IMG/VR virus record: IMGVR_UViG_3300007735_000449
Coordinates: 1-20,331 of that record
Length of the DNA: 20,331 bases
Source of the DNA: a virus
Reading direction: 5' to 3' (one strand)
Shown: positions 12,505-20,331 of the stretch, one piece after another
How positions within the stretch are numbered: the stretch's first letter is position 1
Layout: each line of letters opens with the position of its first letter
Notes under the pieces: generated by a model
Database searches by the model: none
Seen by the model: only the letters and a program-made list of their open reading frames with translations
Told to the model about the DNA's origin: nothing
Position numbers and translations under genes: made by a program

Positions 12505-12582
12505 TGTGTTCCCCCTAGGTTCGTGTCACGGGACCGTCCCGTGCCACGCCTGCAGTATAGTGCCACAAGATACTAGCGTCAA
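12505..12582 (-). promoter_or_regulatory. Strong leftward sigma70-like promoter plus structured leader
   Basis: The -35 TTGACG (12582-12577) and -10 TATACT (12559-12554) have exact 17-base spacing. CACGGGA-CGG-TCCCGTG (12543-12527) is a perfect 7-bp palindrome or hairpin just downstream of the start region. It extends by three more pairs after a mismatch. The 16-mer AACCTAGGGGGAACAC (12521-12506) provides the ribosome-binding site. The palindrome could be an operator or a leader hairpin. Confidence 0.8.
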
Positions 12583-12616
12583 GTGTCTTTTTTCACGCCT
12601 GCCATGCCCGCCCGCA

Positions 12617-12699
12617 GTGCCACCCGTGCCCGCCTAGCCTGCCGTGCCACGCCTACCGCGCCGTGCCACGCCTACAGGATCGCACGCCTACCGTGCCAC
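12617..12699. repeat. GTGCCACG-centred short repeats
   Basis: GCCGTGCCACGCCTAC occurs identically at 12641-12656 and 12660-12675, 19 bases apart. Degenerate partners are CGCACGCCTACCG (12681-12693) and GTGCCACGCGG (12693-12703). Another GTGCCAC starts at 12617. They are the densest part of a wider same-orientation GTGCCAC array. Confidence 0.75.
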
Positions 12700-12873
12700 G
12701 CGGCCGCGCCTACGGGCCCCGGAGCCTAGGCTAGCACCTTGGGCTTCCCGATAGACTCGGGCCCGCTGTAGGGCATTCTCGGCGCGCTCGAGCGTATGGG
12801 CCGCTCGAGTGTCGGCCAGGGTCAAGGTTAGGGGATCGCACGCGCTCGAGCGTAGGGTTCCCATAGGAAAGGA

Positions 12874-14572: not shown

Positions 14573-15257
14573 GTGTAGTGCACATACAAAGCGCAAGCGT
14601 AGGGGTCCACCTAGTGCAATTCCCCCAGGTCCACTATTGCTCAAGTGTGCAGTAGAGGGGGTCGATACACCGCATGCACTGGTGTGCAGGATACCGCCAC
14701 GACCGGCCAAATTTTGACCAGTACTCGGGCCTGCACAGGCGTGCAGTGTGCTAGTGCACGTGCGTGCAGCGACTTGCACGTGCGTGCAGTAGGCGCGGAT
14801 CGCATGCCCTAGTGGCCAGGAACCGACTCCCCCACCACCTACCCTGCGCTGGAGCGTAGGCTAGGCGTGCGCTGGAGCGCGGCGGCGGCGGCGTGCGCGG
14901 GCGCGATGCGGCGGTCGGCCGAACCGGGACCGCCACCCCGGGGCCCCCCAACGCTCGCTTGGCATTTCGAGATAGCAGCGACCCGAAATGTGCGCAAAAA
15001 TTCTGGGCAGAAAACGGGCGGCGGCGGGGGCGTAAGGCGTTGCGGCGAGCGGATTTTGCGGGAAAAGAGCGATCAGGGGGTTGACGATATGTGGGAGTGG
15101 ATACAGACTGTGGGTGCGAGACGACACGGAAGGACGCTGGTGCCGGCCTCACTCGTCGTCTCGCAGCGCGGGAGTGGGGATGGAACCCTGCTATGGGGCC
15201 GGTACTGGCGTCCTTTTGCTATGGGAGGGTTGTGTGGAGGCAGGGAGGTGGGCCCGG
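14573..15257. other. Divergent control region without a gene (685 bp)
   Basis: This separates the leftward and rightward blocks. It contains TGCAC/GTGCA motifs, described separately, and TGCGCTGGAGCG twice (14845-14856, 14868-14879). A very GC-rich stretch (14876-14950) is followed by an inverted repeat CATTTCG/CGAAATG (14963-14969, 14984-14990) and a short A-rich segment (GCGCAAAAATTCTGG, 14993-15007). A rightward promoter must be near, but I could not fix it: TTGACG at 15081 lacks a good -10. Frames here are GC-driven and unconvincing. Confidence 0.65.
14578..14789. repeat. TGCAC-rich motif cluster with 15-bp direct repeats
   Basis: About eleven TGCAC/GTGCA pentamers lie in 212 bp. The longest unit, TGCACGTGCGTGCAG, occurs at 14755-14769 and 14775-14789, exactly 20 bases apart, and each copy is nearly self-complementary. 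Placement next to a divergent promoter suggests operators or initiator-binding sites. Confidence 0.7.
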
Positions 15258-15938
15258 ATGAACCTGGTGGTGGCGGAGGCGATGGCGGAGATCCGCTCGA
15301 GGCAGCTGACGCTGGAGGAGCAGGGGCGGCTGGCGTTGGCGTGGATGGATGTTTATGTGATGGGGTGTGGGGCGGGGGCGGACGAGGGAACGTGGCGTAA
15401 GGCGTTGGGGTACAGCGAGGAGGAGTGGGCGGGGGTCCGGCCTGGGTACCGGGATGTCCTCGAGCATGGTGAGGGGTGGTGGGGGCTGCGGTTCCTGCAT
15501 GCGGAGGTGGTTAGGCAGGGGCAGGTGAGCGAGAAGCAGCGCGGGAACGTGGGTAAGCGTTACGGTGGTATACCAAACCCTACGGTGGTAGAATCTGGTA
15601 TACCAACTCCTACCACCGTATACCAGATGCCTACGGTGGTATACCCTGCCACTGCCACTGCCACTACCACAGAACCTAAACCTTCGGTGAGAGTGCCTGT
15701 GGGGTTCTTGGAGTTCTGGGAGGGGTACAGGTGTGAGCGGAGGAGGAACAAGCCTGCGGCGATGAGGGAGTGGGTGAAGCAGGGGTGTGAGGAGATCTGG
15801 GCGGACGTGGTGGGGGGGCTCGAGAGGTTCAGGGAGACGAAGCAGTGGCGTGAGGGATACATGCCGGAGCCCCACCGCTGGCTGAAGGCCAGAGGGTGGG
15901 AGGACGAAGTGGTAGAGTCCAAGGGCGAAGACTGGTAG
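15258..15938 (+). CDS. O-like replication initiator (DUF1376-type N-terminus), 226 aa
   Basis: ATG 15258 follows GGGAGG; GTG 15234, behind another GGGAGGG, is an alternative start. Residues 10-100 (IRSRQLTLEEQGRLALAWMD, then GYSEEEWAGVRPGYRDVLEH and SEKQRGNVGKR) follow the pattern of DUF1376-type winged-helix domains of phage initiators. Residues 103-140 are a low-complexity Pro/Thr/Val linker whose DNA carries iterons. Residues 149-217 (GFLEFWEGYRCERRRNKPAA to PEPHRWLKARGWED) match the C-terminal region of lambda-O-like replisome organisers. It probably binds the origin and recruits the helicase encoded downstream. Confidence 0.72.
   Translation: MNLVVAEAMAEIRSRQLTLEEQGRLALAWMDVYVMGCGAGADEGTWRKALGYSEEEWAGVRPGYRDVLEHGEGWWGLRFLHAEVVRQGQVSEKQRGNVGKRYGGIPNPTVVESGIPTPTTVYQMPTVVYPATATATTTEPKPSVRVPVGFLEFWEGYRCERRRNKPAAMREWVKQGCEEIWADVVGGLERFRETKQWREGYMPEPHRWLKARGWEDEVVESKGEDW
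15561..15645 (+). repeat. Iterons inside the initiator gene: candidate replication origin
   Basis: The decamer TACGGTGGTA occurs at 15561, 15581 and 15632 on + and at 15611-15620 on -, with start-to-start steps of 20, 30 and 21 bases. TGGTATACCA is a perfect palindrome at 15566-15575 and 15596-15605. The copies lie in different reading frames, so protein sequence alone does not explain them. The site within the linker of an O-like gene is where the lambda origin lies. A GCCACT repeat follows. Confidence 0.75.
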
Positions 15939-15960: not shown

Positions 15961-16209
15961 ATGAAGACTCCAGCGTGGCAGCGCAAGGAAGGCAAGGATC
16001 CGCAGGGCGGACTGAACGCGAAGGGCCGGGCTTCGGCTCGAGCGCAGGGGATGAACCTGAAGCCGCCGGCACCGCACCCGAAGAACGAGCGTGATGCGGC
16101 ACGGCGGGAGTCGTTCTGTGCCCGGATGGGAGGGATGCCGGGGCCGATGGAGAAGAACGGGAAGCCGACCCGCAAGGCACTGGCTTTGAAAGCGTGGAAC
16201 TGCAAGTGA
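15961..16209 (+). CDS. Short DUF6321-like protein, 82 aa
   Basis: ATG 15961 follows AGGAGGAACG. The opening MKTPAWQRKEGKDPQGGLNA continues KGRASARAQGMNLKPPAP, then RRESFCARMGGMPGPM and KNGKPTRKALALKAWN. This is the signature I know from phage DUF6321 proteins (KTPAWTRKEGKNPxGGLNAKGRASY, then RRASFCARMxGMPGP, then PTRxxLAxxAWxC). Usual members run on for another 20 or so residues. This one stops at KAWNCK, so the tail is short. The function is unknown; the protein is small and very basic. It ends 2 bases before the helicase start. Confidence 0.75.
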   Translation: MKTPAWQRKEGKDPQGGLNAKGRASARAQGMNLKPPAPHPKNERDAARRESFCARMGGMPGPMEKNGKPTRKALALKAWNCK

Positions 16210-16211
16210 AC

Positions 16212-17468
16212 ATGACCAAGGGGGTGGATGTGTTTCAAGACGAGACCGCAGAGCGCGCGGTCCTATCAGCCATGCTGTTGGACAATGGTGTGATCCAGTC
16301 CGTGATGGACAGCCTCGAGCCCGAGGACTTCTTCTACGTCCGCAACCAGCTGGTGTTCAGGGCCATCAAGGGGCTGCATCAGGTGAAGACCCCGGCCGAC
16401 CTCGTGACGGTGGTCGAGAACATGCGGATGACCGGGAACCTCGACCAGGCTGGTGGCAGCGGCTACGTGGCCGGTCTGCTGGGGGAGGTCACGACTGCGG
16501 CCAACGTAGGTTCCCATGTAGGCGTGGTGAAGTCCCGCAGCACGTCCCGCCGTCTGATGAAGCTCCAGAATCGGTTCAAGGAGAACATCGAGAGCGGCAT
16601 GTCCGGCCCGGAGGTCGTGGCGCAGCTGACGGCTGAACTCGAGGGCGTCGCCACCCGTACCGGGACTTCTGATCCCGAGCACATCGGTGACTCGCTGCAC
16701 GAGCTGTTCGTGGGGAAAAAGCCCAACATCCCCATCGGGCTCGAGCCGTTGCAGAACCTCAAGGTGGTGCCCGGGAATGTCTGCGTCATCGGAGCCCGAC
16801 CGGGTGCCGGCAAGACGGCGTTCCTCGGGACGCTCGCCCTGTATGCGGCCAAGAACGACTGGGACTGTCTGTTCCTCTCGCTCGAGATGCCGTCGTCCCA
16901 GATTCGCCAGCGACTGATGGCGGCGAACAGCAGCATTGACCTGTCGGTCATCCAGAACGCGGAAGACCCCAAGCTGGTGCAGGCGTCCTACGACCTGCGG
17001 GTGCTGCCCATCTGGATCATGGACGCTTCGCTCCGGCTGGATATGGAGGCCATCGCCTCGACGGTGCGTAAGTTCGTAGCCTCGAGACCGGGGCGGAACA
17101 CGGTGGTGTTCATCGACTACCTGCAGCTCATCACCTCGCGGGCCAAGTACGAGAAGCGGTACGAGCTGCTCGGCCATATCTGCCGGGAGTTGAAGCGGCT
17201 CGCGCTGGCGGTCAATGTCCCGCTGGTGGTGGCGGCCCAGCTGTCCCGGGCAGCGGAGAACAGGGGGAAGGATGCCAAGCCGCAGCTGTCAGACCTGCGA
17301 GAGTCCGGGGAGATCGAGCAGACCGCAGACCAGGTGCTGCTCATCCACCGAGAGCCTGACCGCGCGATGGTCCGAGTGGCTAAGTACCGAATGGGCCCCG
17401 TGTGGACCGCCGAGTTGCGGTTCGTCGGGGAGCGGTGTTACTTCGATGATTTCGGTGGTTGGCGATGA
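16212..17468 (+). CDS. dnaB: DnaB-like replicative helicase, 418 aa
   Basis: ATG 16212 is chosen (two bases after the upstream stop) because it places the typical N-terminal domain start DETAERAVLSAMLLDNGVIQ near residue 9; GTG 16194 is an alternative. The N-terminal DnaB domain spans about 8-110. The RecA-like domain has Walker A GARPGAGKT (194-202), catalytic Glu in LSLEMP (225), Walker B VVFIDYLQL (298-306), and AAQLSRAAENR with the following SDLRESGEIEQTAD motif. It unwinds DNA as a hexamer at the fork. It is downstream of the initiator that should load it. No separate primase is visible. Confidence 0.92.
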   Translation: MTKGVDVFQDETAERAVLSAMLLDNGVIQSVMDSLEPEDFFYVRNQLVFRAIKGLHQVKTPADLVTVVENMRMTGNLDQAGGSGYVAGLLGEVTTAANVGSHVGVVKSRSTSRRLMKLQNRFKENIESGMSGPEVVAQLTAELEGVATRTGTSDPEHIGDSLHELFVGKKPNIPIGLEPLQNLKVVPGNVCVIGARPGAGKTAFLGTLALYAAKNDWDCLFLSLEMPSSQIRQRLMAANSSIDLSVIQNAEDPKLVQASYDLRVLPIWIMDASLRLDMEAIASTVRKFVASRPGRNTVVFIDYLQLITSRAKYEKRYELLGHICRELKRLALAVNVPLVVAAQLSRAAENRGKDAKPQLSDLRESGEIEQTADQVLLIHREPDRAMVRVAKYRMGPVWTAELRFVGERCYFDDFGGWR

Positions 17469-17521
17469 CGGATGGTGTATGGTTCCGGCAGTCGCCGTGG
17501 TGGTGACGACGGAGGTGTGAT

Positions 17522-17698
17522 ATGGCGCGTAAGAGCCCCAAGGCCGCTATGGGTGGCCGCATGAAGAACGACGAGGCTGGTGAAGGCACGATGCACAAGA
17601 CGCTCGGCGTGAAGATGAAGCACGGCATGAAGGAAGAAGCCGCCGAGAAGAAGGGCGCGAAGAAGGCCGGGATGTCGTACGGCATGAAGGGTTGTTGA
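17522..17698 (+). CDS. 58-aa lysine-rich basic protein
   Basis: ATG 17522 follows GGAGGTGTGAT. The peptide MARKSPKAAMGGRMKNDEAG, then KHGMKEEAAEKKGAKKAGMS is rich in Lys, Gly, Met and Ala with no hydrophobic core. It may be disordered or bind nucleic acid. It is one base from the DUF6496-like gene, and both are small and basic. It is too short for many gene finders. Confidence 0.65.
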   Translation: MARKSPKAAMGGRMKNDEAGEGTMHKTLGVKMKHGMKEEAAEKKGAKKAGMSYGMKGC

Positions 17699-17699
17699 T

Positions 17700-17867
17700 A
17701 TGCCGTACACGAAGGTGATGAGCGAGTTCAAGAAGGGCAAGTTGCACAGCGGGTCCAAGAAGGGTCCGGTGGTGACGAACCCGAAGCAGGCTGTCGCGAT
17801 CATGCTCTCTGAGAAGCGCGACGAGCAGGCTAAGCGCGGCGCGAAGCCGGCGAGAAAGGCACGATGA
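17700..17867 (+). CDS. DUF6496-like protein, 55 aa
   Basis: ATG 17700 comes one base after the upstream stop, and its own stop overlaps the next start (ATGA). The sequence MPYTKVMSEFKKGKLHSGSK, then KGPVVTNPKQAVAIMLSEKR matches the DUF6496 pattern KVMxEFKxGKLxSGSxxGPxVxxxKQAIAIALSE, ending in a basic tail (KPARKAR). The family is common in phages and some bacteria; its function is unknown. Confidence 0.8.
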   Translation: MPYTKVMSEFKKGKLHSGSKKGPVVTNPKQAVAIMLSEKRDEQAKRGAKPARKAR

Positions 17868-18676
17868 GTCACGCTGGGGGATACTGCCCGAACTGCGAAC
17901 AATACGTCAGTCCTCCGTTGTTGCCGCTGGACTACTACCAGTGCAACAACTGCATGATGACGATCCACGCCGATGACCTTGTTCGCAAGCGCAGCATGGC
18001 TATGGGTGGAGGCGGTATCCCCAGGTCGTTCGACATGGGACTTATCGGATACTCCGTGCTCTATGACGGTGCTCAGGTCGCGGACACGGTTAATGTCTCA
18101 TGCAACTACAACAGCAACGACTGGCTGTTCGTTGTGGTCTCGACATACGGAGCGAACCAGTTCCCGAACACGGTTACGGCTGCGGGTACACCGCTCGTGC
18201 AGCTGGTGTCCGCAGGTTCGCAGTCGCACAGCAGGACGTCGATCTACTACGGCAGGGCTCAGGCTGGCGGGAACTCGCTGTCTGTATTCTGGACAGGGCA
18301 GCACCCCAACGCGGCGGTGGTATCTGTGCTCCGCACCAGCACGGCTGCGGCATCCCCAATCCTGAACAGCGGCGGTAACGCAGGGAATGCCAGCTCAACA
18401 TCGGCAACGCTTGGAACAAACCAGAGTCCTACTGCAAGCAACGCCTACTGTATCTATGCGGTCGGAGTCGAGTCAGGACAGGGGACCATAACCAATGTCC
18501 CAGCAGGTTACACGCTTTCGAATTTGCAGAGCACGGGTTCCGCGCAGAATCCAGTAGACACAGAGCAGGCCGTATTCGTGCAAGACCTTACAAACTCAGC
18601 GACGGTAGGTTCTGTCACCAACCTGAGCGGAACCAACTACTACTCGCAGGTCATGGTGATCGTGGGCAAGTCATGA
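17864..18676 (+). CDS. Zinc-ribbon plus beta-rich domain protein, 270 aa
   Basis: The N-terminal 45 residues hold CPNCEQYV (Cys8, Cys11) and CNNCMMTIH (Cys27, Cys30), a zinc ribbon with HADDLVRKR after it. From about residue 57 the protein becomes a Ser/Thr/Asn/Val-rich beta domain (SNDWLFVVVSTYGANQFPNT, then SIYYGRAQAGGNSLSVFWTG), typical of secreted or virion-decoration modules. The last residues are YYSQVMVIVGKS. Base usage is less GC-skewed than in the neighbours. A cytoplasmic zinc module joined to a surface-type domain is unusual. It may be a capsid or tail accessory placed before the packaging genes. Confidence 0.65.
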   Translation: MSHAGGYCPNCEQYVSPPLLPLDYYQCNNCMMTIHADDLVRKRSMAMGGGGIPRSFDMGLIGYSVLYDGAQVADTVNVSCNYNSNDWLFVVVSTYGANQFPNTVTAAGTPLVQLVSAGSQSHSRTSIYYGRAQAGGNSLSVFWTGQHPNAAVVSVLRTSTAAASPILNSGGNAGNASSTSATLGTNQSPTASNAYCIYAVGVESGQGTITNVPAGYTLSNLQSTGSAQNPVDTEQAVFVQDLTNSATVGSVTNLSGTNYYSQVMVIVGKS

Positions 18677-19197
18677 GCGAGAAGCAGCCGCTATCACTCG
18701 ATGAGGCCATCGGTCTCATCAGCGACATCGCCCGGCATGGCGAGGGCGCGGACAGGCTACGGGCACTCAAAGAAATCCGTGTCATGGCGCAGGAGACGGG
18801 GTCGGTCACGCTACCCGACCCCATGTCCGACGCCGAGGTCATCGAACGGCTCGCGAGGCTCATCAAGGCCGCTGGTCCTACGGTGGCGCAGCTCGCCTAC
18901 AAGCAGGCGTTCCCGTTCTCGAAGAAGACCGTACACGAGGCTATACCGAAAGTTCTCGAGTCCGACCTCGGTATCGACAAGAGCAAGCTCCCGGTGAACC
19001 TGCGCCAGCTGTACAAGATGTTCCCAGAAATCAAGCGGTCTGGCATCCCGCAGGGATACCCTCGAGGACGTGGGCTGGCGGTGGTGAAGAAGTGGTGTCA
19101 GGACAAGGCGATGCAGATGATCATCGACCGCGAGCAGGGACGCATCGCGGAACAGGCCAAGACCGAGGGAACGGATGTCGACACCCAAGAAGCGTGA
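18673..19197 (+). CDS. Probable terminase small subunit, 174 aa
   Basis: ATG 18673 overlaps the upstream stop (ATGA). The gene directly precedes and overlaps the terminase large subunit, the usual place for the small subunit that selects DNA for packaging. Residues about 58-95 (VIERLARLIKAAGPTVAQLA, then FPFSKKTVHEAIPKVLESDL) could be helix-turn-helix. The middle KLPVNLRQLYKMFPEIKRSG and a lysine/glutamine-rich tail follow. The call rests on position and a helical pattern rather than on a diagnostic motif. Confidence 0.6.
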   Translation: MSEKQPLSLDEAIGLISDIARHGEGADRLRALKEIRVMAQETGSVTLPDPMSDAEVIERLARLIKAAGPTVAQLAYKQAFPFSKKTVHEAIPKVLESDLGIDKSKLPVNLRQLYKMFPEIKRSGIPQGYPRGRGLAVVKKWCQDKAMQMIIDREQGRIAEQAKTEGTDVDTQEA

Positions 19198-20331
19198 GCC
19201 GGCGTCGTGGGCGGGCGAGGACGAGATTGAGCTCCTGAGGCACTTCTGCCGGCAGGACTTCTGGACGTTCTTCCTGTACTGCTTCGGTGCATGGGCAAAC
19301 CCGAAGGGCCGTCGATGGATTGACCCCGAGGTCCATGAGCCGATGGCCCGGTGGTTCCAGAAGCACATCGACGAATGGCAGCAGTGGCGCAAGGACGGGG
19401 TGGGGAAGCAGAAGCACCTCGCCATCCTGGTCCACCGAGAGATCGGCAAGACCACCCTGTTCACTCGAGCCGGGCAGCTGTGGCTGCACCTGCGAGACCC
19501 CGAGATTGCGACCGCACTCGGAGCCGAGAAGGAAGGTCTCGCGGCCAAGATGCTCGAGGCCATGAAAGCCGTACTGGACGGGTCGGACTCCCACGCCCTA
19601 TGGACCCAGCTCTACGGCAACTGGTCCGAGAACGCCCGTAAGTGGACCAACAAGGAAATCGTGCACTCGGGTCGCAAGAACACCTCGCGTCAGGATCCCA
19701 GCGCGGTCGTGTTCGGCGTCGAGACGTCCATCACGGGTTCACACCCCGACGTCCTGTTCTACGACGACCCCATCTCCTACGAGCGTCTGACCACGGACAC
19801 CAACTGGCTGGCGTCGGTGAACTCGCAGATCTCATCGCTCATCCCGGTCATTCAGGGCGACGGATTGCTGGTGTGGGTCGGCACACGGTACGACGACGAG
19901 GACCATTTCGGCGTGGCGTTCCGCACCCAGGGCGTTGCCTCGGTGGAGGGGATGCAGACGGACAGCATCCCGCTGGACCCGGACGGGAACATCCACGTCT
20001 ACTTCATGGCTGGTCGGGACATGGATGGCAAGCCCACCACCCCGAACGTATGGCCCGAGGAGCGGCTCAAGCGGTACGAGAAGGCCGAGCCCCTGCGGTA
20101 CGCGGCCCAGATCATGAACGACCCCAACATCTCGGAACTGAACCCCATCACCCGCGACCAGATTGTCCAGTGCGCGGTGGAGAAGAAGGACGTTCCGTGG
20201 TCGAGTCTGCGGTTCGCCATCTGTTGCGACACCGCGTTCTCCGATGGAAGCAAAGTCAGCTCGAAGGACGAGACCGTGATGGTGGTGCATGGCTATCCGA
20301 GGAACGGATCGGGAGACGTGTACATCACCGT
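19175..20331 (+). CDS. terL: Terminase large subunit (partial, 385 codons seen)
   Basis: ATG 19175 overlaps the small-subunit gene by 23 bases, and the frame runs off the right edge. The ATPase has a variant Walker A LVHREIGKTT (85-94) and Walker B VLFYDDP (193-199), with the motif LLVWVGTRYDDEDH (231-244). The start of the RNase-H-like nuclease is RFAICCDTAF with Asp352. It powers DNA packaging into the prohead and cuts the concatemer. The C-terminal nuclease residues lie outside the window. Identity is clear from motif order and size. Confidence 0.92.
   Translation, partial: MSTPKKREPASWAGEDEIELLRHFCRQDFWTFFLYCFGAWANPKGRRWIDPEVHEPMARWFQKHIDEWQQWRKDGVGKQKHLAILVHREIGKTTLFTRAGQLWLHLRDPEIATALGAEKEGLAAKMLEAMKAVLDGSDSHALWTQLYGNWSENARKWTNKEIVHSGRKNTSRQDPSAVVFGVETSITGSHPDVLFYDDPISYERLTTDTNWLASVNSQISSLIPVIQGDGLLVWVGTRYDDEDHFGVAFRTQGVASVEGMQTDSIPLDPDGNIHVYFMAGRDMDGKPTTPNVWPEERLKRYEKAEPLRYAAQIMNDPNISELNPITRDQIVQCAVEKKDVPWSSLRFAICCDTAFSDGSKVSSKDETVMVVHGYPRNGSGDVYIT

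Follow-up and report, generated by a model that had tools for sequence, protein, structure and literature searches.

A probable replication origin inside the initiator gene of an uncultured high-GC phage, and repeat arrays at the same position in related phage initiator genes

In lambda, P22 and phage L, iterons lie inside the gene encoding the replication initiator, and they are different iterons in each phage (PMC8022706; PMC7466680). Lambda has the order O – ori-lambda – P (NC_001416), with four iterons in the middle of O (PMC7466680). In P22 (NC_002371), where the order is gene 18 – ori – gene 12, the origin falls within the coding sequence of the initiator (32840-32984) and a phage DnaB-type helicase follows. 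Gene 18 of Salmonella phage L carries six imprecise copies of an 11-bp iteron, proposed from sequence as the origin, and a DnaB-type gene 12 belongs to the same replication module; L gp18 has been described as a distant homologue of O and gp18 (PMC8022706). A further set of initiators, those of the families phrog_9474, phrog_9327 and phrog_270, is represented in Gordonia phages Gsput1 and Catfish and in Paraburkholderia phage IPK, and several of these also have repeats in a linker. In a partial coverage of the literature, we found no papers on in-gene iterons of DUF1376-type or phrog_270-type initiators.

The phage considered here is represented by IMG/VR record IMGVR_UViG_3300007735_000449, positions 1 to 20,331 of which were analyzed (the window). 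Its initiator gene (15258-15938, + strand) encodes 226 amino acids and, as in lambda, carries four iterons near its middle, in an array at 15561-15645 that corresponds to codons 101-129. There follow a gene for an 82-aa DUF6321 protein (PF19846, phrog_4689; 15961-16209, + strand) and, one gene downstream of the initiator, the gene for a DnaB-type replicative helicase (phrog_19; PF00772 and PF03796; 16206-17468, + strand). The preliminary description placed the helicase directly after the initiator, as in lambda. The helicase is indeed close by, but the DUF6321 gene intervenes, and the likeness to lambda fails on this point, since the gene after O is P and not a DnaB helicase. Lambda P is a helicase loader. 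The lambda record labels it a DNA replication protein. An initiator and then a phage DnaB is the layout of P22, which is the nearer model for the window, although in P22 no gene stands between the two. In Gsput1 and Catfish too, the helicase is directly downstream of the initiator.

The array has four exact copies of TACGGTGGTA, three on the + strand (iterons 1, 2 and 4, at 15561-15570, 15581-15590 and 15632-15641) and one inverted (iteron 3, 15611-15620, − strand). Their start-to-start steps are 20, 30 and 21, and all lie just where they had been reported. Interleaved with these copies are GGTATACC palindromes. Two palindromes had been noted earlier and are present as TGGTATACCA, one overlapping iteron 1 (15566-15575) and the other at 15596-15605; a third occurrence of GGTATACC (15638-15645) overlaps iteron 4. 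There is also a match to CGTATACC at 15617-15624. From 15561 onward, the array can be read as a near-decamer series, TACGGTGGTA TACCAAACCC TACGGTGGTA GAATCTGGTA TACCAACTCC TACCACCGTA TACCAGATGC C TACGGTGGTA TACC. Copies 2 and 3 point toward one another across the central TGGTATACCA in a 40-bp inverted repeat (15581-15620) that is 85% complementary, and the composite unit TACGGTGGTA-n5-TGGTATACCA is legible from either strand of this dyad. Iterons of 10 bp accompanied by palindromes, with one copy inverted, differ from the 18-bp units of lambda; phage L, like the window, has short iterons, but its repeat word is another. It had been argued as well that steps near multiples of 10 bp put the sites on one face of the helix. 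For a helix of 10.5 bp per turn, their positions work out to 0, 326, 274 and 274 degrees, so the argument is weak; the proven iterons of lambda are likewise not in helical phase.

Over the whole 20,331 bp, the array ranks first for repeated 8-mers and also for repeated 10-mers, and its 86 bp hold 8 of the window's 33 TGGTA/TACCA half-sites. Four copies of TACGGTGGTA were reached in none of 5,000 synonymous codon permutations that kept the peptide and in none of 5,000 uniform recodings of the initiator gene. The peptides encoded by iterons 1 to 4 are YGGI, PTVV, TTVY and PTVV. Given an array beyond every synonymous shuffle and peptides that differ, the repeating element is DNA and not peptide, and the constraint on this part of the gene acts at the level of DNA, as the preliminary description held. 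Its appeal to different codon phases stands only in part: copy 1 (phase 0) differs from the rest and copy 3 is inverted, but copies 2, 3 and 4 are all in phase 2.

In a stability scan, the lowest-stability 60 bp of the whole window fall at 15569-15628, a candidate opening site. GC content at the array goes down to 48-55% (53-55% in the flank), compared with about 63% around it and overall. A scan of the flanks found no strongly AT-rich tract beside the array, in contrast to lambda, where such a tract adjoins the iterons. Local GC skew flips sign, from about +0.5 on both sides to -0.44 at its lowest inside the array region. The minimum of cumulative GC skew is at about 14.5 kb. Since leftward genes meet rightward genes there, the minimum is confounded by gene direction and does not provide independent evidence, and we dropped it as an indication of an origin.

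Repeats of other kinds occur elsewhere in the window. In the intergenic region at 14637-14792, which separates early genes running leftward from replication genes running rightward, an imperfect TGCAC-n-GTGCAG motif is present in four spaced copies, two of them perfect TGCACGTGCGTGCAG; a phage regulator likely uses these copies as operators. Second in repeat density within the window are five GCCTGCCGTGCCACGC-like repeats at 12534-12701, in an apparently intergenic stretch. At 12783-12857, the sequence CGCGCTCGAGCGTAkGG appears twice, 58 bp apart, with the palindrome CGCTCGAGCG in each.

The initiator protein has no match in Pfam (E ≤ 1) or NCBIfam, and searches of PDB by sequence and by fold yielded nothing useful. 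Its C-terminal part matches the phage replication-initiation families phrog_9474 (E 1.8e-5), phrog_9327 and phrog_270, carries the motifs F..FW..Y, K..A and WL...WEDE of their proteins, and is found at E 4e-21 by a profile of this C-domain made from relatives. An AlphaFold2 model (alignment of 60 sequences, mean pLDDT 75.6) places a helical N-domain at residues 2-88 and, with confidence, a C-domain at 150-218; confidence is low between about 75 and 120. We describe the protein as a helical N-domain (about 2-88), a disordered linker (about 89-149) and a C-terminal replication-initiation domain (about 145-222). By this model, the two folded domains flank a stretch predicted to be disordered, the linker, and the codons of the array fall within it. 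Possibly, the N-domain is DUF1376-like but divergent: comparison of profiles over residues 2-85 gave E 0.0015 to DUF1376 (PF07120) with a probability of only 17%, which is suggestive only, and the best viral fold matches of the model, at low TM-scores, include DUF1376 proteins and replisome organizers. The protein had been called an O-like initiator with repeats in its linker. The position in the linker agrees with the model, but membership in the lambda O family does not hold, as there is no match to Phage_rep_O (PF04492), and neither lambda O nor P22 gp18 is matched by the C-domain profile.

A search by peptide pattern found no close relatives of the window's initiator in IMG/VR or GTDB genomes. 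The same phage is present as IMG/VR contig 3300011116_000747, which is 99.9% identical from 16719 on (window 16719-20330) and starts within the helicase, without the initiator. That record, of 19,183 bases, runs past the end of the window, so the phage genome must be considerably longer than the window. Another locus, L074, encodes a helicase 72% identical to the window's, and from that gene rightward it matches the window at 79% identity along some 4.1 kb. A different gene lies just upstream (L074:1-383), an unrelated reading frame, methyltransferase-like by eye, that replaces the initiator and DUF6321 genes. The comparison of the two sequences suggests a mosaic breakpoint at the start of the helicase.

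The exact 14-mer TACGGTGGTATACC occurs in IMG/VR at 71 loci, with a single match at each and no clusters like the window's, and we read these matches as chance. Paired TACGGTGGTA was found at 20 loci and paired TGGTATACCA at 58, but only L250 and L272 have such pairs in initiator genes with the window's C-domain. In these two, which have another N-domain, the pairs are of TGGTATACCA, the window's word, and lie in the linker (L250:3624-3656 and L272:270-312). Convergence or shared recognition is possible. We treat the two as a lead only, because they represent a single family and GTATAC palindromes are uncommon in the other linkers.

Relatives with the same C-domain were gathered from IMG/VR, GTDB genomes and phage records. 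They were picked by one C-terminal peptide pattern, so the survey samples that domain family and not all phage initiators. For each gene, 9-mers repeated within 150 bp, on both strands, were compared with those in 400 synonymous permutations of its own codons. Genes were collapsed at 50% identity, significance was set at p ≤ 0.01, and neighboring ORFs, with 200 permutations, served as controls. The test recovers the annotated origins of lambda (codons 115-142) and of P22, whose iteron words are other than the window's (gene 18, codons 119-155 of 271). Significant in-gene arrays are present in 35 of 62 independent viral or phage genes (the window counted in) and in 23 of 35 genes of bacterial genomes independent of the viral set, compared with 4 of 105 control ORFs (Fisher p below 1e-13 for each set of relatives). 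Among significant arrays in genes whose C-domain could be located, the centers lie in the 75 codons preceding that domain in 32 of 34 viral genes and 21 of 23 genome genes (about 93%, against an expected 28%). An array in the linker thus recurs across the class and is common even in distant relatives.

The words that are repeated vary from family to family, and the arrays of many relatives are direct repeats. The N-domains are diverse as well, including HTH_36, DnaD_N, Phage_rep_O, DUF6291, DUF1376 and others, and PF04492 is matched by 5 of 72 aligned relatives. The described initiators of phrog_9474, phrog_9327 and phrog_270 have the window's C-domain, but their N-domains vary, their repeat words differ from the window's, and the arrays of Gsput1 and Catfish were not significant in the strict test. 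Paraburkholderia phage IPK and its relatives (L077, L093, L103, L107 and L159) combine a lambda-O-like start with the shared C-domain, and their linkers carry GTTATCaAAAcGATAAC-type iterons and a run of CAAAAGACAACTC with a period of 13 bp. About one third or more of the relatives are without a significant array, so the C-domain can do without one. Of 130 relatives whose sequence sufficed for the check, 29 have a DnaB match downstream, so within this class a phage DnaB is one partner among several.

Conservation of the repeats in related genes, beyond that of the peptide, had been proposed as a test. For the class, it is observed: across ten related pairs, where two proteins share a residue, their genes also share its codon more often within an array than elsewhere (pooled odds ratio 1.95, z 3.65, p 0.0003). 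The amino acids themselves are often less conserved within arrays than outside. In the pair L088/L101, for example, residues are identical at 18 of 40 positions inside the array and 137 of 206 outside, while codons are the same in 13 of 17 cases inside and 47 of 127 outside. Two of these pairs, L114/L144 and L112/L078, show the opposite trend; their members did not attain significance (p ≤ 0.01) when tested for arrays. Within one family, the word is GGGGCGTC in L088, L109 and L133 and GGGGCGAC in L158, and the copies agree within each. A word that changes between relatives while its copies stay in agreement suggests concerted change.

The array very probably constitutes the phage's theta-type replication origin, situated inside the initiator gene. 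Several copies of the 226-aa initiator would bind the TACGGTGGTA/TGGTATACCA sites through their N-terminal domains and bundle the DNA. An overlapping or adjacent stretch of low stability would then open, and the C-domain, tethered by the linker, would direct the phage's DnaB-type helicase (16206-17468) onto the opened strands. These steps of binding, melting and recruitment are inferred. An origin can sit inside a gene at this point because nearly any sequence will do for the linker peptide, which leaves the DNA free for binding sites.

The array might instead be an operator, at which the initiator or some other phage regulator represses the transcription that passes through its own gene and the helicase gene, with no replication starting there. 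Plasmid initiators do autoregulate at iterons, the mix of inverted and direct sites and 10-bp palindromes is what dimeric regulators typically use, and sites inside a gene could block elongation. The array nevertheless lies about 300 bp into the gene, far from its start. Most relatives use the same linker position despite having DNA-binding domains of different types, and in lambda and P22 that position is the origin. We therefore consider an operator improbable.

Less probable again is that the 40-bp dyad acts in the transcript as an RNA hairpin, by way of attenuation, mRNA stability, or translational control of downstream genes. The stretch does fold as RNA better than shuffled sequences do (-35.1 kcal/mol, z -2.7), but as single-stranded DNA it also beats shuffles (z -3.3), as any set of inverted repeats must. 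No U-run follows the dyad, and of the three further copies, two are in direct orientation. A hairpin has no need of direct repeats, and many relatives have arrays made of them. Perhaps the repeats merely mirror a linker peptide that is repetitive or of low complexity, and have no function as DNA. The linker is rich in Pro, Thr and Val, and PTVV and GIP occur in it twice each. Still, this is the hardest explanation to credit, contradicted as it is by the shuffles, where no peptide-preserving permutation matched the observed repeats, by the inversion of one copy and the different peptides that the copies encode, and by the conservation of array codons beyond the peptide in related genes.

An origin in the initiator gene of this uncultured high-GC phage is a specific candidate that can be tested. 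In-gene origins were already known for lambdoid phages; the survey adds statistical evidence for this position in the majority of a different protein family. The general pattern, extending over a superfamily of non-lambdoid initiators, is a more useful result than the single case. It offers a practical rule, that phage origins be sought in the linker of the initiator by sequence alone, across DNA-binding domains of differing types. Conceivably, across a large superfamily of initiators from phages and prophages, the N-domain and the linker DNA move as one self-contained specificity cassette, a protein reader together with its own sites, set upon a constant C-domain, and the window has one such cassette; we hold this idea tentatively, at a little short of even chances. 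If it is true, the specificity of an origin would be swappable in one recombination event, while the recruitment of the helicase would stay fixed.
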